Of a stretch of DNA of 64,000 bases, positions 48,862 through 62,028 are shown piece by piece. Position 1 is the first letter of the stretch. Every line of letters starts with the position of its first letter. Under the pieces are notes generated by a model. It ran no database searches. It saw nothing but the letters and a program-made list of their open reading frames with translations, and was not told the DNA's origin. The translations under genes and the position numbers were made by a program. The stretch is from Natronorubrum sediminis (GTDB taxonomy: Archaea > Halobacteriota > Halobacteria > Halobacteriales > Natrialbaceae), in the NCBI RefSeq assembly GCF_900108095.1, contig NZ_FNWL01000001.1, positions 682,001 through 746,000 on the forward strand, read 5' to 3'.

Positions 48862-48954
48862 CGACGTATCAAAATCGACGATATCGTCACTGAGCAAGCA
48901 CGTACCGACGTTTGACGACCGCATACTTTTCCGTTGCCTCGTCGTGGACGTGAT

Positions 48955-50313
48955 ATGGCTGCGACCGATACTCATCCTGTGGACGACCCCGTTACCGTCG
49001 GGGTGTTGAGTCTCCACACGAGCAAGGAGACGAAAGCAATTCTGAACGCCGTCGACAAACTGGGCCACGAAACCGAGTGGCTCCGGACGGAGAACACCTC
49101 GATCAGCGTAACCGACGGCAGCGTCGTCCTCGAGCCACACGTCGACGTCATCGCGAACCGAGTGTTGCTCTCGAACACCGAACAACCTGCTGAGGAACTC
49201 GGCATCGTGAACACGTTCGCACAGCTCGTTCCGACGCTCAACGAACCCTCGACGGTTCTCACGGCGATCCACAAGCTTTCGACGGCGACGACGCTCGCGG
49301 CGAACGACGTCCGAACTCCCGACGTCACGCTCGCGTTGAACAGCGAGCAGTTGAACGCCGTTCGAGACAGATACGGGGAAGAAGCGGTTTACAAGACGGC
49401 AATCGGAACCCACGGCGGCGGGACGTGGAAAGTCAGCGGCGACGATCCGATCAACGCCAAAGTCGGGAACCGATACGCGTTCTTACAGCAACTGATCGAC
49501 CGAGACGACGCCCGCCACCGGGACGTCCGTATCTACGTCGTCGACGGCGAGATCATCGCGGCGATGTATCGATACGCCCCCGATAACGACTGGCGGACGA
49601 ACGTGGCACTCGGCGGTGACGTCGAAGACGCGACCGACGACCTCCCAGAAGAAGCTCGAGAGATGGCGCGACGGGCGGCTAACGCGATTGGACTCGACTA
49701 CGCCGGCGTCGACCTCGTCGAAGGCGACGAAGGGTGGTTCGTCCTCGAGGTGAATCCGACGGCTGGCTTCAAGGGACTCTTTTCGGCCACGCACGTGAGC
49801 CCAGCACCCTACATCGCCAAACTCGCCATCGAACGCGCCGGCGGCGACGTCGACGACGAACGCGTCGAGGAACTCTCGGCGGTCCTCGACGATGCCCAGC
49901 CCGCGGCACAGCCGGTTCAAACGCCACAAACTGAACCCGAGGCGAGCGTCATCGGCTACACCGAAGAAATCGTGCTCTCGGGGACCAGCGGTTCGACGTC
50001 CGTCTACGCCAAGTCCGATACCGGGGCGACTCGGACGAGCATCGATACGGCTCTCGCCGCAGAGATCGGAGCAGGGCCGATCAAGTCGATCACGCGCATT
50101 CGCTCTGGCAGTTCCAAGACGGCCAAAAGCCGACCCGTCGTCGACGTCGTCGTCGGCGTCGGCGGCAACCAACACACCGTCACGGCGAGTGTCGAGGATC
50201 GCAGTCACATGGACTATCCCGTTATCCTGGGTCGCGACATCCTCGGGAACTACCAGGTCGACGTGAGTCGTCGTGTCGACGGCGACACCCCCGATACGCC
50301 CGAAGAGGAGTGA
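48955..50313 (+). CDS. RimK-type ATP-grasp ligase fused to a retropepsin-like ATP-dependent protease domain
   Basis: From the ATG at 48955 the protein has 452 residues. Residues about 90-300 are a RimK-like ATP-grasp ligase (AVYKTAIGTHGGGTWKV, MGYADGVDL-like text here ANAIGLDYAGVDLVEGDEGWFVLEVNPTAGFKGLF). Residues about 330-440 are a RimK/LysX-associated aspartic-protease-like module with D355-T-G-A (YAKSDTGATRTSIDT) and a later VILGRDILG. RimK ligases add amino acids such as glutamate to peptides or proteins. The fusion of ligase and protease in one chain is notable. An M14-type hydrolase with related genomic company is at 44963-46075. Confidence 0.85.
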   Translation: MAATDTHPVDDPVTVGVLSLHTSKETKAILNAVDKLGHETEWLRTENTSISVTDGSVVLEPHVDVIANRVLLSNTEQPAEELGIVNTFAQLVPTLNEPSTVLTAIHKLSTATTLAANDVRTPDVTLALNSEQLNAVRDRYGEEAVYKTAIGTHGGGTWKVSGDDPINAKVGNRYAFLQQLIDRDDARHRDVRIYVVDGEIIAAMYRYAPDNDWRTNVALGGDVEDATDDLPEEAREMARRAANAIGLDYAGVDLVEGDEGWFVLEVNPTAGFKGLFSATHVSPAPYIAKLAIERAGGDVDDERVEELSAVLDDAQPAAQPVQTPQTEPEASVIGYTEEIVLSGTSGSTSVYAKSDTGATRTSIDTALAAEIGAGPIKSITRIRSGSSKTAKSRPVVDVVVGVGGNQHTVTASVEDRSHMDYPVILGRDILGNYQVDVSRRVDGDTPDTPEEE

Positions 50314-50510: not shown

Positions 50511-52730
<2,220 letters not shown>

Positions 52731-53138: not shown

Positions 53139-55037
53139 TTACCGATCGAAACGCGCCCACATCGCTATCGAGAGGAGTGCGACGAGGGCGGCGACTGCAC
53201 CGAAGCCGGGGATCGAGTCGTCATCGTCCGACTCGTCGTCGTCGCCTACGTCGGTCTCGAGGTAGTTGTCGACTTCTTCCATGTCGAGTCGCGGGTGATC
53301 TTCGTCCCAGTCGCCCGGCATGTGGATCTCGGTGTCGTCCGCGACGATCGAATGCTCGCGGATGTCGTCTTCGTCGTCATCGTCGTCGGCCATGTCGGTG
53401 ACGTAGACGTAGCCGGCGTCGTCGTCGCCGTAGATGTGTTCGACCGTCAGTCCGTGGTAGCCGTCCTCGAGGTGATCCTCGAACGCACCGAGGTCGTCGA
53501 AGGAGGCACCGGTTTCGAAGGTAACCGTTCCGTCGTCCATATCGAGGTCGAACTGCATGAGTTCGAGGTCAGCTTCGTCGAAGGCGGAGACGAGCTCGAG
53601 TGCGTCGTCGTCGACGGTCGGGTCGTTCTGGAGGTCGTTGGCCATCGTCGTGATCGCCGTTTCGATGATCGCCTCCTGTCCGACTTCGAGTCCCATCTCG
53701 AGGTCGATTTCGTCGCCGACCGTTTCCGCGTGAGCGTCGATCACGAACTCGGGCGAGTCGATATCGCGGTCCGCGAGTTCGTCGGTGTAGGCGTCCCAGT
53801 TGTCAGTCTCGGAGGTGACGTCGACGACGAATTCTTGCGATCCGCCGGCTGCGTCGAACGTCACGTCCCACTCGGTCGTCTCGGTGAGGTCGGCCGCTGC
53901 CTGGGCCTCGTACATCTCCTCGTAGTCGTCGAACTCGTCGGCCGCGTCGTCGTCCATCTCGTCGCTCGCTTCAGCGAGGTCCATCATCGCGAAGGCAGAC
54001 GATTCGAAGCCGCTGAACGCGACGTCCCAGTGGCCGTCGACGGTCGTGTCGTCCTCGGCGAACGCGAGTTCGAACGTCTCGAGTTCGGCGTCGAGGATAT
54101 CCGCGGCGATCTCGTCGGCCTCACTTTGCGTTACGTCGAGTGTCGGATCGGTCGCGAGATCCTCTGCGACGAGTTGCTCGAGGCCGTCTTTGGCGTTCTC
54201 GAGTTCGACCGTGTACTCGATGTCGAGGTGACCGTCGCCCATCGCGTTGACGTTCTCCTCGAAGTCGTGGTCGTGGATTGTGACCGTGACGTCGCTGCCG
54301 AGGTCTTCTGCGACGACCTCGAATTCGTCCTCGAGGGTCGCCTGTGCAGCGTCCTCGGTATCCCAGTCGTGGGTTTCGAACTCGATGATCACGTCCTGTT
54401 GTGCCATCTCGAGCGTGTAATCGTCACCCGTCTCCGTGATCTCCAGATCGAGGCCGATCTCGGGTGAATCAGGGGGTGCGTTGTGTGACATGTCGAACTC
54501 ACCCTGCGTGGCGAGATCGTCTGCACCCATTACGACGGAACCACTGGTCGAGATGGACTCGTCAACGGTCGCTTCCGGCGGCGAGTCGGAGGCGGCGAGT
54601 GCCAACTCGAGGTTCGCGTCGAAGTCGTTCGTCGACTCCGTTTGCTCACCAGTGACGTCCATCGAGAAGTCCTCGACGTCAGCCGGTCGATCGGCGGCGA
54701 GCGAGCCTGAGGACTCGAGGCCATCGTTGTCGAGGGCCATCGAGAACGCAGCGGAGACGTCGTCTTCGATCTCGTCGGTGACGAGCGCGTACGCCACCGA
54801 CTCGGAGATATCGACGCCGAACTCACCGCTCGCTTCGTCGTCGATCCCGTCGTCTTCGTCGTAGACGAGGACGGCCCCACCGTCGTCGTCGACGAACACC
54901 TCGTCGGCAGGCTCGGCTTCCTCCATCCCTGTGTCTGCCACAGCAGTGCCTGCTGCGACCGACGTGATCATGATGAGAGCCATCATGACTGCACCTATAC
55001 GGCTAACCGTTGCACCACTAACAAAGTCCCTTCCCAT
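53139..55037 (-). CDS. Secreted acidic repeat-region protein with PGF-CTERM anchor
   Basis: From the ATG at 55037 the protein has 632 residues (a start seven codons upstream gives 639). The Sec-type leader VSRIGAVMMALIMITSVAAGTAVA is followed by a very acidic extracellular part of about 560 residues, then SIPGFG, a hydrophobic helix and Arg at the end. PGF plus helix plus basic end is the archaeosortase A sorting signal. The ectodomain is related to that of the divergent gene at 55128. Both share blocks such as VFVDDDGGAVLVYD, a TxxWDV strand and NWDAYTDEL. No known family recognised. Probably a surface protein processed and lipid-anchored. Confidence 0.8.
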   Translation of the reverse strand: MGRDFVSGATVSRIGAVMMALIMITSVAAGTAVADTGMEEAEPADEVFVDDDGGAVLVYDEDDGIDDEASGEFGVDISESVAYALVTDEIEDDVSAAFSMALDNDGLESSGSLAADRPADVEDFSMDVTGEQTESTNDFDANLELALAASDSPPEATVDESISTSGSVVMGADDLATQGEFDMSHNAPPDSPEIGLDLEITETGDDYTLEMAQQDVIIEFETHDWDTEDAAQATLEDEFEVVAEDLGSDVTVTIHDHDFEENVNAMGDGHLDIEYTVELENAKDGLEQLVAEDLATDPTLDVTQSEADEIAADILDAELETFELAFAEDDTTVDGHWDVAFSGFESSAFAMMDLAEASDEMDDDAADEFDDYEEMYEAQAAADLTETTEWDVTFDAAGGSQEFVVDVTSETDNWDAYTDELADRDIDSPEFVIDAHAETVGDEIDLEMGLEVGQEAIIETAITTMANDLQNDPTVDDDALELVSAFDEADLELMQFDLDMDDGTVTFETGASFDDLGAFEDHLEDGYHGLTVEHIYGDDDAGYVYVTDMADDDDDEDDIREHSIVADDTEIHMPGDWDEDHPRLDMEEVDNYLETDVGDDDESDDDDSIPGFGAVAALVALLSIAMWARFDR

Positions 55038-55127
55038 TATTGGATAATTGTCATTCACCTATATGTTACTTTCGAATATATTGATAGTGATTGGCAACGA
55101 AGTCGTGATACGAACGTCCAAACACGT
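55038..55127. promoter_or_regulatory. Shared divergent promoter of the two surface-protein genes
   Basis: The 90 bp between the divergent starts hold an AT-rich core. CATATAG (minus strand, near 55060-55066) lies about 26 bp before the 55037 start. TATATTGATA (near 55077-55086) lies on the plus side about 45 bp before 55128. The two promoters are nested, so the paralogs are likely regulated together. Confidence 0.5.
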
Positions 55128-57131
55128 ATGAAGATCGGGTTAGAACCGACAGCACGAATGGCCAGTTTCGGACGTTCGAGCGCGCTACTCGTCGGGATAC
55201 TCCTCGTGACGAGTCTGGGGGCCATCGGGGTCACTGGAGCACACGCTGACTCGGACGAACCGGTCCCTGAGGAAATCCTCGAGGAGATCGACGCGACGGA
55301 AGACGTCGAAGCGGTATACGTGTCCGACGATGGCGACGCGGTGCTCACGTACGACTATCCACACGAAGCGTCCCAGACTGGAACGACACTCGAGGGGCAG
55401 TTCGGTCTCGACACGGATCCTGGGGTCGCGTACACGCACTACACTGGAGCCGTCGATGAAGACGAACGCGGCGTAACCGGTGAGCTGTCGATGCACTCCG
55501 ACCGCGATGGCGTCTCGAGCGTCGGTGACGTACTGATCGAAGATCCAGCACCGATCACGGACCTCGAGGCGGCCATCGACGTGTCACAAACCGACACCGA
55601 GTCGACCTCGAGCGGTGACGTGCAGGCGACCGTCGCCGATCACGACCCCGATTACGACGCACTCGAGACGACCGGCGAGCTAGAAATGACCTCGGAGTCG
55701 ATCACCAGTTCGGGAACGCTCTCGCTCGTCGAGGCCGAGATCGACGGCGTGCCGGCCGGCACGGACTCACTCGAGGCGACCGTCGTCGAGCGCGACGACG
55801 GCTACTCCCTCAAGGTGAGCGAGCGACGGGTCATCGAGGACTGGGAGACGGATCGATGGGAGACGCGCGAGGACGCCGGCGAGTCCCTCGAGAATCGGTA
55901 CTCGAGTATCGCCGTCGGGCTAGGTGGGACGGCCGACGGTGAGATCGAGTCCTACGACTACTCGGGCGACGGTGACCAGAATATCGTCGAGTACGAGTAC
56001 CACGTCGAGTACACGGGCGTCACGGACGAGGTGGCGGCGGCCGCCGTCTCGCTGGTTCAACAACAGGCCGAGACCGAACTGGACGAGACCGAAGCGCAGG
56101 CGATGACCGATCGACTCGCAGAAGCGACCGTCGAGGAACTCCACCTTACCGTCGATAGAGACGGCGAAGCGACCGACATCGAGTGGGACCTCGAGGCCGA
56201 CGCCCACGACGAGGTCGTCCTCGGAACGGTCGAACTCGCCGACTCGCTCGAGTCGGTCGACGACGATCTCGCAGATCGCTTCGACGACGTCAGCGAGACG
56301 CTCGAGGTGCGTGCGGAAACGGATCTGAAACGGACGACGTCGTGGGACGTCACGGCCGAGCGAGCCGACGGCCTGACGATGGTCGACGCGACCTGGGAGA
56401 GCGACACCGAAAACTGGGATCGACACGCGAGCGCGCTCGAGGAGCGCGATCTCGAGGCGCTCACGCCCGATCGCACGATGACGTTCGACGCGGCGTCGAC
56501 CGAGGACGGTCTCGAGGTCGTCTACGACTCCGAGACCCGGGAGAACGGACTACTCGAGTGGTCGCCCGACGGCCTCGGGGAGGTCGGGACGGTACTGGGT
56601 GTGGAGTTCGGCCTCGGAGACGTGGGAGTCGACACTGACGATGTGGTTCCGATGTCGACCGTCGACGAACTGTCGCAGACGGCCGAACTCGCGAGAACCG
56701 ACCTCACGATCGACGACGGGACGTTCGAACTCGAGGGCGCAGCGGCTGATCCGGACGCGACACTCGAGTCGTCCCCAATCGGGAGCGAGGACGAACTGAC
56801 GGCGTCAGAACTCCACGTCGAGACGATGGGTGGCTCGAGTACTGTGTACGTCGTCGCCGACGGGTTCGTCGGCGCGGACCCCACCGAAGCGGAGGTTCGC
56901 GACCACGAACAGGTCGGTTCGGAGACGACCGTCTCCATGTCCGGCGAGGAAGAGCCCGACGTGCCCGAAATCGACTACGACCGCGTCGAGACGCTCCTCG
57001 AGACCGAACTGGACCGCGGCGAGACGTCCGAACTCAACTGGAGCGGTGTCGGTGCGGTACTCGTCGTGTTGAGCAGCCTCGCCACGGTCGCGCTCGGATT
57101 CTACGCCGCTCGCCCACCGTCGCGCGAGTGA
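55128..57131 (+). CDS. Secreted acidic protein with C-terminal TM anchor, paralogue of the divergent neighbour
   Basis: The 667-residue protein has a signal-type segment (SSALLVGILLVTSLGAIGVTGA), a ~590-residue acidic extracellular part and a C-terminal helix (GVGAVLVVLSSLATVALGFYAARPP) without the PGF signal. Its ectodomain is similar to the protein at 53139-55037: EAVYVSDDGDAVLTYD, TTSWDVTAE and DTENWDRHASALEERDLEA align with that paralogue. No known domain is recognised. It lies 68 bp before the RND-permease gene in the same direction. It may present a substrate or assemble with the permease; that is inference. An ATG ten codons in is an alternative start. Confidence 0.8.
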   Translation: MKIGLEPTARMASFGRSSALLVGILLVTSLGAIGVTGAHADSDEPVPEEILEEIDATEDVEAVYVSDDGDAVLTYDYPHEASQTGTTLEGQFGLDTDPGVAYTHYTGAVDEDERGVTGELSMHSDRDGVSSVGDVLIEDPAPITDLEAAIDVSQTDTESTSSGDVQATVADHDPDYDALETTGELEMTSESITSSGTLSLVEAEIDGVPAGTDSLEATVVERDDGYSLKVSERRVIEDWETDRWETREDAGESLENRYSSIAVGLGGTADGEIESYDYSGDGDQNIVEYEYHVEYTGVTDEVAAAAVSLVQQQAETELDETEAQAMTDRLAEATVEELHLTVDRDGEATDIEWDLEADAHDEVVLGTVELADSLESVDDDLADRFDDVSETLEVRAETDLKRTTSWDVTAERADGLTMVDATWESDTENWDRHASALEERDLEALTPDRTMTFDAASTEDGLEVVYDSETRENGLLEWSPDGLGEVGTVLGVEFGLGDVGVDTDDVVPMSTVDELSQTAELARTDLTIDDGTFELEGAAADPDATLESSPIGSEDELTASELHVETMGGSSTVYVVADGFVGADPTEAEVRDHEQVGSETTVSMSGEEEPDVPEIDYDRVETLLETELDRGETSELNWSGVGAVLVVLSSLATVALGFYAARPPSRE

Positions 57132-57199
57132 CCCGTGCGAAACTGAAAGTCACGTCGAACTGAAAGAAGTATACGCGTTCCGAACAGTTGTCACGACTG

Positions 57200-60100
57200 A
57201 TGAACGGGGGGAGACAGGACGAGCCGACACGGTTCACCCGGCTCGTCGACGCGATTACGACGCAGACGACGGTCGTGATCGTCTCGATTCTCCTCCTCAC
57301 GGCCGTCTTCGGTGTCGGAATCGCGTTTCTCGAGTACGATAGCTCGCTCGAGCAATTCGAGAGCGAGACGAAAGAGGCGGAGACGCTCGAGTACGCGACT
57401 GCGAATTTTTCGACGCAAGAAGAAGCGAACACGACGGTCACGGCGGTGATCGTCAGCGACGACGACGCGCTCGCGAAGGAATCCCTCCTCGAGTCGCTCG
57501 AATTCCAACAGGCGCTGCACGAAAACGAGACCGTCACCGAGACGCTGGCAGCGGACTCGCCGACGATCGGCGTCGAAAACGTCGTCGCCACGAGCATACT
57601 CCGCGAGGACGACGTCGACACGCTCGTCGAGCGCAGAGACGACCTCGAGGAACGTGCGGACGAACTCGACGAAACGGAAACCGATCTGCGCCAGGCTCTC
57701 GAGTCGGTTCGCGGCCTCGAAGCCGACTACGCGGACCTAAACGCTTCCTATGAGAACGACGAGATCGACGAAGAGACGTACCAGACTCGTGCGGGCGATC
57801 TTGACCAAGAACTCGAGTCGGTTCGCGAGGAAGCAACGACTGATCTCGAGGACGATCAGACGCAGTCATTCGACCGAGCGATGGGAAGCGTTCGAGCCGT
57901 TCAATCAGAGATCAACGCCACCGAGCGGGCGTATGCGGACGGTGAGATCAAGACGGAGGCGTACGACGAACGAACGGATCGACTCGAGAACGACCTCGAG
58001 ACAGCGTACACCGACGGCACGGTCGGCGTGCTCGGCGACGAGTACGACGAACTGTGGGCAGAACAACGGGAGCTGGAGGACCAGCGAGACGACCTCGAGT
58101 CCCTCGATCAGCCCCCACTCGAGGAGCAGATTTCGGCGCTCGAGTCGATAGACGAGTCGGCCTATGAACGCCATCTCGAGGAACTCGGCGACGAGGAGTC
58201 GCCAGCCGTCGACGAGTTCGCGACGACGTTGCTCCCCTCGTCGTACGAGGTTGGAGACACACAGGCCGAGAAGCGACTAACCGTTCTCAGGCACGCACAG
58301 GCGGGAGTGGACGGAGAGGAGGACGGGGACGTGAACGCGGATACGGATACGGATACGGATTCGACCGGCGACCGACTCGTCGAGAGCGAACTCGCCGTAC
58401 AGCAACTGGCAGCGGATCACGGCGACGCGAGCGGCGGCGAATACGTCGTCTTCGGCCCCGGAATCGTCTCGGACGAGATCGACCGGGCGATCGTCGACAG
58501 CCTGATTTTCGTCGGCCCGCTCGCACTCGGCGTCGTCCTCGTCTCGCTGGCCGTCGCCTACCGCGACCCGATCGAGGTCGCACTCGGCGTCGCCGGCATC
58601 GGAACGGTGCTCGTCTGGACGCTCGGATTCATGGGCTGGGCCGGGATCACGTTCAACCAACTCTTCGTGGCGATTCCCGTCCTCTTGATCGGGCTCTCGA
58701 TCGACTACGCGATCCACGTCTTCATGCGCCATCGCGAGTCGCGCGAGACGGCGGCCACGGCCGTTCGACCGGCGATGGCGCTCGCGCTCACCGGTGTCGG
58801 CGTCGCCCTCCTCTGGGTCACCGCGACGACGGCGATCGGCTTTCTGTCGAATCTGGTGAGCCCGATCGCGCCGCTTCGCGAGTTCGGCCTCGTGAGCACG
58901 GTCGGCATCGTCGCGGCGCTGCTCGTCTTCGGCGGCCTGATGCCGGCGATCAAAATCGAACTCGACGAGTCCCTCGAGCGACGGCGACCCGCTCTCGGAA
59001 TCGAAGATGGCCCCGTTCGAAGCGCGTTATCGGTCGGTGCGAGCGCGGCCCGCGTCGCGCCGCTCGTCGTCCTCGTCCTCGTCCTCGCGGTCACCGCGGG
59101 CGGCCTCTACGCGGCGGGTTCAGTCGATACTAACTTCGACGAAGACGACCTTCTCGCCGAGAATCCGTCGTGGACCGAACACGTTTCGACGACCGACCGA
59201 GACTACCAGGCGACGGCCGGATACGAAGCACTCGAGGATGGCTTCGAGTACCGGGACGCACAGGCCCAAATCGTCGTCTCGGGCGACGTGACGGACGGCG
59301 ACACGCTCGAGCGAGTCGATTCGGCACGGATGCAGGTAAGCGAGAGCGAGTCGACCGACGCGGCGCACTCGGCCGGCGCGGACGACCAGAATCCGCTGAC
59401 GGTGATGGAATCCGTCGCCACAGAGGACGAGTCGTTCAACGCGTCGTTCCACCTCGCCGACCGGACGGGTGACGGCGTTCCCAACCAGAATCTCGAGGGG
59501 CTGTACGACCACCTGTTCGAAAGCGATCCCGAGGCTGCGAGCGAAGTGATCCACCGCACGAGCGATGGCGAGTACGAGTCGGTTCGTCTGCTCGTCTCCG
59601 TTCGCGGGGACGCGCCGGCCGAAACGGTGACGAGCGACGTGCAATCGGCAGCGGCGATGGTCGACGACGGTGGCGCGGACGAGCGCTGGAACGCGAGCGC
59701 GACCGGCCCGCAGATCGTCGAGCACACCGTCGAGGAGAGTCTGCTGGACGGAATTTTCGAGAGTCTCGTGATCACTCTCGTTGCGGTTTTCGGGTTTCTG
59801 ACGGCTGCATACTATCTCACCGGCCACAGTGCGTCTCTGGGAATCGTCACACTGTTGCCGGTCGCCCTCGCCGTCTGTTGGATCGTCGGCACGATGGCAC
59901 TACTTGGGATTCCGTTCAATATACTGACCGGAACCGTCACGAGCCTCACGATCGGACTCGGCGTCGCCTACAACATCCACGTGAGTTCGCGCTTCGTCCT
60001 CGAGCGTCGGAGACGAGGAGACGCCGCCGACGCGCTCTCGCGAACGATGGCTGGCACGGGCGGCGCACTGTTTGGTAGCGTGGCGACGACGACGCTCGGC

Positions 60101-60295
60101 TTCACCACGCTCGCGCTCGCGTTCCTCCCCGCCGTTCGCCAGTTCGGCTTCGTGACGGCGCTGACGATCGCGTACGCATTTTTCTCGAGCATCCTCGTCC
60201 TGCCCACGCTGTTGCTCCTCTGGGCGCGCTACGTCGCTGATGGCGGGGAGAACGACGACGCCCAGAATGGCCAGCGTAGCCAGAATGGCCGGTAA
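57200..60295 (+). CDS. RND/MMPL-family membrane permease with coiled-coil ectodomain
   Basis: From the ATG at 57200 the protein has 1,031 residues. A first helix (VIVSILLLTAVFGVGIAFL) is followed by an extracellular domain of roughly 380 residues rich in long charged helices, including a predicted coiled coil (LDETETDLRQALESV to LEEQISALES, about 150-310). A membrane block of helices follows (LIFVGPLALGVVLVSLAVAY; SIDYAIHVFMRHRE), then a second extracellular loop and a final membrane block (LGVAYNIHVSSRF). This is the two-fold RND arrangement, usually proton-driven export of lipids or hydrophobic compounds. A TTG four codons upstream is an alternative start. Confidence 0.88.
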   Translation: MNGGRQDEPTRFTRLVDAITTQTTVVIVSILLLTAVFGVGIAFLEYDSSLEQFESETKEAETLEYATANFSTQEEANTTVTAVIVSDDDALAKESLLESLEFQQALHENETVTETLAADSPTIGVENVVATSILREDDVDTLVERRDDLEERADELDETETDLRQALESVRGLEADYADLNASYENDEIDEETYQTRAGDLDQELESVREEATTDLEDDQTQSFDRAMGSVRAVQSEINATERAYADGEIKTEAYDERTDRLENDLETAYTDGTVGVLGDEYDELWAEQRELEDQRDDLESLDQPPLEEQISALESIDESAYERHLEELGDEESPAVDEFATTLLPSSYEVGDTQAEKRLTVLRHAQAGVDGEEDGDVNADTDTDTDSTGDRLVESELAVQQLAADHGDASGGEYVVFGPGIVSDEIDRAIVDSLIFVGPLALGVVLVSLAVAYRDPIEVALGVAGIGTVLVWTLGFMGWAGITFNQLFVAIPVLLIGLSIDYAIHVFMRHRESRETAATAVRPAMALALTGVGVALLWVTATTAIGFLSNLVSPIAPLREFGLVSTVGIVAALLVFGGLMPAIKIELDESLERRRPALGIEDGPVRSALSVGASAARVAPLVVLVLVLAVTAGGLYAAGSVDTNFDEDDLLAENPSWTEHVSTTDRDYQATAGYEALEDGFEYRDAQAQIVVSGDVTDGDTLERVDSARMQVSESESTDAAHSAGADDQNPLTVMESVATEDESFNASFHLADRTGDGVPNQNLEGLYDHLFESDPEAASEVIHRTSDGEYESVRLLVSVRGDAPAETVTSDVQSAAAMVDDGGADERWNASATGPQIVEHTVEESLLDGIFESLVITLVAVFGFLTAAYYLTGHSASLGIVTLLPVALAVCWIVGTMALLGIPFNILTGTVTSLTIGLGVAYNIHVSSRFVLERRRRGDAADALSRTMAGTGGALFGSVATTTLGFTTLALAFLPAVRQFGFVTALTIAYAFFSSILVLPTLLLLWARYVADGGENDDAQNGQRSQNGR

Positions 60296-60338: not shown

Positions 60339-61775
60339 CTACTCGGCGTCGCGTTTGCTCTCGAGGATCACTTCTTCGTCGGTGATCTCGGTGATTTCCG
60401 AGGCGTCGACCGGGTACTCGTCGTCGCCGTGGCCACCCCAGTTGAGTCGCGCCTTGAGTCGATCCGTCAGTCCGGGCTCGGGGTCGATGTAGGCCGTCTG
60501 TGCGTCGATTTCCGTCACGATTCCGACCTGTTCGCCCGTCTCGTCGACGACTGCTTTCCCCTGTTCGTCCGCTGAGAGTTCGGTCGGCCCGGCGGCTCCC
60601 GTCGCTCCCGCTCCGGGTGGGCCTGCTTCGTCAGCCCGCTCCGCGTCAGCACCCGTTTCGCCGGGCGCTTCCGCCATCGGTTCGTCTTCGCTGAGTTGCT
60701 CGGAACCCGCGTCAGCCGTCGCGTCGTCGTCCGCCATCGGTTCGTCCCCAGCCATCGTCTCGTCCGCATCCATCGGATCACCGCCGGCTAGCGACTCGCC
60801 GCCAGCCACGCCGCCAGTCGCCGGAGCGTCTATCGCCTCCATCGACTCGTACTCCTCGACGTCGATGATCTCCCCCTCGAGCAGGTCGCTGCCGATCACC
60901 TCGGACTCGAGCAACTCGGTCTCCTCGAGCGTAAAGCGCATCATCGAGCGCTCGTCGATCTGATCCTCGAGGGTTCGGCGTTCGAGCAGTTCGCTCTGGA
61001 CGGTGTCGCCTTCGCCGCGCTTGCTCTCGATAACCTCGCGATCGACGACCTCGTCGGCAGCGACATCGGAGCGAACCACGTCGCTCTCGAGGATCGAGCG
61101 CTGGACGCTCTCGAGTTCGACGTCGGTCTGAATCTCGTCTCGCTCGACCTCGTCGTGTTGTTCGATGTCGACGTCGACCACTCGACTCTCGACGATGTAG
61201 CGTTCGATTTCCTCGATGGTCTCGAGTCGGGATTCGTCGGTGGTCACCTCGATTACGTCGGCGCTCACGAATTCGGTGTTCACAACGTCTCTGCTCAACA
61301 GTTCGCTCTCGACGACGCGTCGCTCCGTGAGTTCGGTGTCGACGACCGAACTCTCGATCGTGTCGCGCTCGACGACTTCGGTCTCGACGACCTGCGTCTC
61401 GACGATTTCGGTCGTCACTGTCTCACCCTGTCGAAGCTGATCCTCGAGTTCACTGCGACCGATCGAGGCTCGATCGAACGCCATTTCGCGCTCGACCAGT
61501 TCGAAGTGGCCGAGTTCGTCTCCGGCGGCCGGTTCGTCGTGATAGACGAACACGAGGTCCTCGTCTCGGAACGTCTCCATGAAGCCCTCCCACGTGTGCT
61601 CTTCTTGGTCCTCCTCGATCGCTCCCTGCCGTGCGAAGGAGTGGCCGTGCCCTTCGCCGCCGTGAGTCGAGACGGGAACCGCCTCGCGCGATTCGGCCCA
61701 TTCGCGAATTCGCTCGGGATCGGTCGTCATTCGCCGTTGTCCGCCCCCGTCGTCGGTTGGTCTCTCGTTTGCCAT
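60339..61775 (-). CDS. Pentad-repeat protein with C-terminal PRC-barrel domain
   Basis: From the ATG at 61775 the protein has 478 residues. Residues 20-100 resemble a small haloarchaeal domain (IREWAESREAVPVSTHGGEG; HTWEGFMETF; LVFVYHDEP). Residues about 121-310 are about 38 five-residue units of the form S/T-D/E-V/L-V/I-E/D (for example TEIVETQVVETEVVERD, SDVVRSDVAADEVV, SELLERRTLEDQI). The two hydrophobic residues recur strictly every five positions, suggesting a beta-helix or pentapeptide-repeat fold with a very acidic surface. A Met/Gly/Asp linker leads to a PRC-barrel (about 408-475). A frame extending 43 codons upstream is unused. Function unknown. Confidence 0.8.
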   Translation of the reverse strand: MANERPTDDGGGQRRMTTDPERIREWAESREAVPVSTHGGEGHGHSFARQGAIEEDQEEHTWEGFMETFRDEDLVFVYHDEPAAGDELGHFELVEREMAFDRASIGRSELEDQLRQGETVTTEIVETQVVETEVVERDTIESSVVDTELTERRVVESELLSRDVVNTEFVSADVIEVTTDESRLETIEEIERYIVESRVVDVDIEQHDEVERDEIQTDVELESVQRSILESDVVRSDVAADEVVDREVIESKRGEGDTVQSELLERRTLEDQIDERSMMRFTLEETELLESEVIGSDLLEGEIIDVEEYESMEAIDAPATGGVAGGESLAGGDPMDADETMAGDEPMADDDATADAGSEQLSEDEPMAEAPGETGADAERADEAGPPGAGATGAAGPTELSADEQGKAVVDETGEQVGIVTEIDAQTAYIDPEPGLTDRLKARLNWGGHGDDEYPVDASEITEITDEEVILESKRDAE

Positions 61776-62028
61776 CTCGATTCCGACCCCGGCCAGCGAA
61801 CACTTGAGTCGGTGTGGCCGTCTCGACAACTCAGTATGAGATTTCTCGCATCCGGACGACCGGCTTGCATACTCGCGCGCGTAATCGGTGATTGGCCGGT
61901 CCAAACAGTGTGCGCGAGTCGACGACGACTGACGGAAGTCCTGCGTTACTCCGATCCTCGAGGCTGACGCTCGACTCCCGTTACCCCGTTACACGGCGAA
62001 CGAACGCCGATTGCAGCAGAGTTGGCAG

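Follow-up and report, generated by a model that had tools for sequence, protein, structure and literature searches.

A branch of an unnamed haloarchaeal surface-protein family co-occurs with one clade of RND permeases in Natrialbaceae

Introduction

Haloarchaea have no outer membrane, yet each encodes several RND permeases. The closest known counterpart of the system reported here is that of Haloferax volcanii, where the RND permease HVO_A0467 is encoded in an operon with HVO_A0466, a secreted, fibre-like protein with four Ig folds by prediction and a C-terminal transmembrane helix (PMC11349517). This type of pairing is widespread and the phylogenies of partner and permease correspond; for a Haloferax RND permease, a hydrophilic siderophore has been proposed as the export substrate (PMC11349517). 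That an RND permease may work with a surface partner tethered to the membrane is thus a known idea.

The window analysed here is a stretch of 64,000 nucleotides from Natronorubrum sediminis. An initial annotation, made from its sequence alone, proposed that two paralogous surface proteins and the neighbouring RND permease could form an export or surface-assembly complex that had not been described. As judged from the sequences such a complex is plausible, and its layout recalls the Haloferax pair: P0002, like HVO_A0466 (a COG1361 'RND-T-associated protein'), is predicted to be secreted and to end in a C-terminal transmembrane helix, and its gene lies directly upstream of an MMPL-type RND permease gene, which partner genes of this kind overlap or abut. 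Since the analogous pair is already in print, the novelty of the locus is narrower than proposed: the partner family, its tie to one RND subclade, a change of anchor and the presence of a second paralog, which bears a PGF-CTERM tail and has no counterpart in the HVO_A0466/HVO_A0467 layout, are new.

Results

Two paralogous surface proteins with different anchors

The first gene of the locus (53139..55037, minus strand) encodes P0001, here also called FAM-A, an acidic secreted protein of 632 residues counted from its ATG, with a PGF-CTERM tail. A 90-bp intergenic region (55038..55127) separates its start codon from that of the divergent gene for P0002, or FAM-B (55128..57131, plus strand; 667 residues). 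The alignment of the two proteins spans their full length, with 28% identity and an E value of 5e-38. Both are acidic, with D+E at 30.5% and K+R at 1.4% in P0001 and at 25.5% and 4.3%, respectively, in P0002, and both begin with a signal-peptide-like helix in their AlphaFold2 models.

Their C-termini differ. P0001 ends in a PGF motif, a hydrophobic helix and a basic tail, and this sorting signal for archaeosortase recognition (residues 606-626; 53160..53222, minus strand) scored 30.7 bits against TIGR04126, above the cut-off of 24.5; PF18204 also scored above its cut-off. By its tail, P0001 resembles other PGF-CTERM substrates and would be expected to be cleaved by archaeosortase A and attached to a lipid. 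Neither PGF-CTERM model matched P0002, whose tail, NWSGVGAVLVVLSSLATVALGFYAARPPSRE, holds a plain transmembrane segment at approximately 57039..57107 (plus strand).

The ectodomains were not covered by any Pfam or NCBIfam family, and Pfam found none in an alignment of 24 relatives. A profile search of solved structures returned a single match, to the gp41 coiled-coil (5e-4), which we read as a match in helix composition and rejected as a relative. On the evidence of their sequences, P0001 and P0002 belong to an unnamed family of haloarchaea. The initial annotation, which recognised no family for them, was thus right for the named databases and too strong otherwise, since family members occur in 58 of the 243 genomes that we sampled from the order.

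Kinship with the COG1361 partners was rejected as well. Those whose genes adjoin RND genes on plasmids of Haloarcula and Halobacterium carry CARDB and NEW3 domains, and Pfam detected no such Ig-like domains in P0001, P0002 or the 24-member alignment; a comparison of P0002 with these partners gave an hhalign probability of 0.5% and a BLASTP E value of 1.1.

Three further genes lie around the locus. A catalase-peroxidase-like gene (50544-52730, plus strand) adjoins it, as it does in another genome, G200 (L073). A gene for a 459-residue protein (48934-50313, plus strand) appears, by eye, to encode a RimK-like ATP-grasp domain followed by a protease-like second domain (YAKSDTGATRTSID). Directly 3' of the permease gene and on the opposite strand, a gene for a 521-residue protein (60339-61904, minus strand) encodes a long series of short repeats of the VVE/VVD type.

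The adjacent permease is a relative of HAE3-type RND proteins

The stop codon of P0002 is 68 bp from the ATG of P0003 (57200..60295, plus strand), a permease of 1031 residues. The MMPL model matched P0003 over two stretches (1.1e-31), and Patched models matched each half; a simple hydropathy scan recovered 11 of 12 transmembrane helices, arranged in two MMPL halves. Its score against the HAE3 model TIGR00921, 190.2 bits, is below the curated cut-off of 351.9, which makes it a relative of HAE3 proteins rather than a member by that model. Among proteins of solved structure, it is closest to HpnN, Patched and NPC1, the first two being the best matches.

With HAE3/MMPL proteins such as HpnN, MmpL, Patched and NPC1, P0003 shares the motif in transmembrane helix 4 that carries an aspartate. 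This motif, GLSIDYAIH (58691..58717, plus strand), lies in the N-terminal half, and sequence comparison found its Asp, the probable proton relay, in nearly all of the 79 RND sequences compared. At the matching motif in helix 10, GLGVAYNIH (59954..59980, plus strand), Ala replaces Asp, as in most of these relatives. By analogy with the RND family, one Asp and one Ala at these places would fit a proton-driven pump with a single acidic relay. P0003 differs from the HAE3/MMPL proteins in its long, heptad-rich first ectodomain: hydrophobic residues recur along the first extracellular loop in a heptad-like pattern that is most coiled-coil-like around residues 121-240 (57560..57919, plus strand). The description of the locus in the initial annotation, from the two divergent acidic paralogs with one PGF-CTERM signal and one plain helix to the permease 68 bp downstream with a long coiled-coil ectodomain, was therefore accurate.

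In permease trees, P0003 and the other permeases encoded beside FAM-B fall in one clade, RND2, apart from the ubiquitous haloarchaeal permease RND1; in the largest tree, the 21 RND2 sequences stood apart from the other 58 (branch support SH-aLRT 100). RND2 is a relative, and probably a duplicate, of RND1. In many genomes of Natrialbaceae RND1 is encoded between a ribonuclease Z gene and an overlapping gene for a TrmB-like regulator, with a pelota gene nearby (L123-L142). One genome that has no member of the surface-protein family (G036, L245) encodes a divergent second RND protein in tandem with RND1.

The three genes form a conserved cluster

FAM-A, FAM-B and the permease were found together in seven genomes from four genera: that of the window, three others from its genus (G200, G306, G309), and G258, G240 and G305. 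All seven FAM-B genes adjoin the RND permease gene on the same strand, and all seven are accompanied by a PGF-CTERM paralog. Two gene orders occur. FAM-A diverges from a FAM-B-RND2 pair in G258 and in the genomes of the window's genus, while the order is RND2-FAM-B-FAM-A on one strand in G240, a match to Haloterrigena turkmenica DSM 5511, and, as inferred across a contig break that leaves the genes at two contig ends, in G305. In G306 and G258, the FAM-B and RND2 genes share a 4-bp overlap. The cluster is located in differing neighborhoods and, in Natronorubrum aibiense (G306), on the plasmid NZ_CP045490.1, where the genes are annotated as encoding a PGF-CTERM protein, a hypothetical protein and an MMPL transporter. 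We rejected the idea that the three genes came together by chance, since the cluster persists across these changes of gene order and place.

Most members of the family stand alone

Members were found in 74 of 125 genomes from the window's own family, and no member was found in six of the ten species of its genus. A scan of named organisms placed members in Natrinema, Halopiger, Haloarchaeobius, Haladaptatus, Halorientalis, Haloglomus and others; the first such scan, with P0001 as the sole query, gave no match. In most genomes the family is represented by one gene, which encodes a PGF-CTERM tail and has no permease gene closer than about 9 kb. The commonest neighbor (31 genomes) is a divergent gene that we named from its sequence as a putative tRNA methylthiotransferase, and this neighborhood looks like the ancestral place of the family. 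Since most members are single genes with no permease nearby, the suggested link to a permease fails as a general claim, and the ectodomain must have a role that is independent of an adjacent RND protein. Adjacency to an RND gene, as seen for the COG1361 partners, is a property of the seven FAM-B proteins and not of the family at large.

In a tree of 87 family members, these seven proteins form one clade (SH-aLRT 99), nested within a clade of 22 rows (SH-aLRT 100) whose remaining rows are single genes; we refer to the latter as the wider FAM-B clade. FAM-A proteins form a clade of 10 rows (SH-aLRT 100) that extends to three single genes from genus g5, where FAM-A occurs alone. The anchor follows the tree: the PGF-CTERM signal is kept in 57 of the 65 other members, where a few of the apparent absences come from misplaced gene ends or from close variants like LPGYG, vs. 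2 of 22 in the wider FAM-B clade. P0002 and 20 of the 22 proteins of this clade thereby differ from the archaeosortase substrates that P0001 resembles. Elsewhere in the family, G248 (L181, 7562-11773) and G243 (L182, 7928-12117) carry same-strand tandem pairs of family genes with no RND gene nearby, one copy of each pair without the PGF motif, apparently from a duplication separate from that in the window.

FAM-B and RND2 co-occur even when unlinked

The wider FAM-B clade is represented in 22 genomes of Natrialbaceae, and RND2 was found in 20 of them. Conversely, 20 of the 21 RND2 sequences come from these 22 genomes. The remaining sequence is from G321, a genome that is 53% complete, and a congener, G320, carries a fragment of a family member that lies closest to the wider FAM-B clade. 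RND2 was not found at an E value of 1e-60 in G249 and G250, where FAM-B-like genes are present. Where FAM-B was absent, the additional RND copies retrieved were RND1 or belonged to other types, the weaker matches having been classified in part.

In 13 genomes without the cluster, RND2 is distant from FAM-B (and in 12 of them is in tandem with RND1), so linkage alone cannot account for the pairing. Shared ancestry might. A general haloarchaeal surface protein, S-layer-associated or otherwise structural in the envelope, could have no transport role at all, a few Natrialbaceae copies having become linked to a permease in a mobile cluster. Such an account, which we think unlikely, draws on the many single PGF-CTERM genes beside unrelated housekeeping genes, such as that for the tRNA methylthiotransferase, and on the differing locations of the cluster, one of them a plasmid. 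Fisher's test on the counts (20/2 vs. 1/102, the 1 being G321) gave 7e-20, a value that ignores ancestry. Using the RND1 tree as a stand-in for the species tree, which offered seven independent contrasts, we found six concordant independent pairs, no discordant pair and one tie (p = 0.031). With the linked clusters left out, four pairs remained, three concordant, none discordant and one tied (p = 0.25), too few for significance, which again suits the general surface protein. Against it, FAM-B and RND2 distances were correlated in a mirror-tree comparison (r = 0.84, 0 of 5000 permutations) and co-varied beyond the RND1 distances, with a partial r of 0.63 once the latter were removed (0 of 5000 permutations). 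The finding of RND2 in 20 of the 22 genomes of the wider FAM-B clade and in a single half-complete other, together with the persistence of the same three genes despite a change of gene order, also argues against it. The link to a permease therefore holds for a defined subset with FAM-B, in which the co-occurrence extends to unlinked genes, and not for the family as a whole.

Predicted structures suggest a long open beta-sheet

AlphaFold2 models were built from alignments of the relatives found by the locus search, with the wider FAM-B clade not included, and had a mean pLDDT of 77 and pTM of 0.68 for P0001 and of 69 and 0.64 for P0002. Both models share a topology of about 12 long antiparallel strands in a meander, free of helices, then about five hairpins with helices between them, a low-confidence stretch and the C-terminal helix. 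Unlike the Ig-fold fibre of HVO_A0466, they mix long strands and helix pairs. Residues in the strands strongly alternate between hydrophobic and polar, giving the predicted sheet one hydrophobic face.

Foldseek searches against the PDB and viral models gave no global match, with TM-scores of about 0.1. For both models, the top VIA-align hit was the FMO protein (Z = 6.2 and 6.3; the trust level is 8), followed by PIG-T. The FMO protein is a single sheet filled with pigment; with Z under the trust level, we treat the resemblance simply as a lead towards an open sheet that holds a ligand.

Discussion

We think it probable, with some reserve, that P0001, P0002 and P0003 act as one cell-envelope unit in which FAM-B is a dedicated, membrane-tethered extracellular partner of RND2. 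RND2, powered by the proton gradient by way of the Asp conserved in helix 4, would carry a substrate to the outer face of the membrane. Held beside the permease by its transmembrane helix, FAM-B would receive or gate the substrate at the coiled-coil ectodomain of RND2, and FAM-A, on the lipid anchor predicted from PGF-CTERM processing, may take the substrate on or act at a distance. A longer history also strikes us as an even call: a non-Ig family with an open beta-sheet would have become the dedicated partner of RND2, exchanging its PGF-CTERM anchor for a transmembrane one when a duplication of RND1 gave rise to RND2; in some lineages it would have been packaged with RND2 and a paralog on a lipid anchor as a transport unit of three genes.

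A sharper form of this partner reading, which we put forward tentatively, is that the family proteins are carriers of lipids or other hydrophobic molecules, bound by the open beta-sheet. LolA, LppX and Bst proteins such as BstB are carriers that serve envelope transporters, and the likeness to them that we propose is one of role, an extracytoplasmic carrier tied to a permease; profile searches, Foldseek and VIA-align gave no sequence or reliable fold match between P0001 or P0002 and carriers of this type. Both models have the long meander, helix-free over its first twelve strands, with one hydrophobic face, and share FMO and then PIG-T as their best, if weak, structural neighbors. HpnN, Patched and NPC1 handle sterol-like molecules, and the kinship of P0003 with them, taken with the sheet, suggests a hydrophobic substrate, which we might speculatively seat in the curved beta-sheet of the partner. 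On the other side stand the Z scores under 8 and TM-scores of about 0.1, the fact that a hydrophobic face is common to any soluble beta protein, and the hydrophilic siderophore proposed for the Haloferax permease (PMC11349517).

Adjacency by itself would also fit FAM-A and FAM-B being cargo, exported or displayed by the permease as its substrates or clients, and not parts of the machine, but we consider this very improbable. The signal-peptide-like helices of both proteins and the PGF-CTERM of P0001 imply that they are exported through the Sec or Tat route, and the majority of family members belong to genomes without RND2. RND proteins of the MMPL/HAE3 type transport small molecules and lipids and, to our knowledge, not folded proteins.

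If FAM-B is indeed a dedicated partner of RND2, the recruitment of such a surface partner by archaeal RND permeases would have happened at least twice. A second partner family, unrelated to the first, would follow one RND subclade across Natrialbaceae, with the change of anchor visible along its tree, and FAM-A, FAM-B and RND2 together would offer a compact set of genes through which to trace the substrate genetically.
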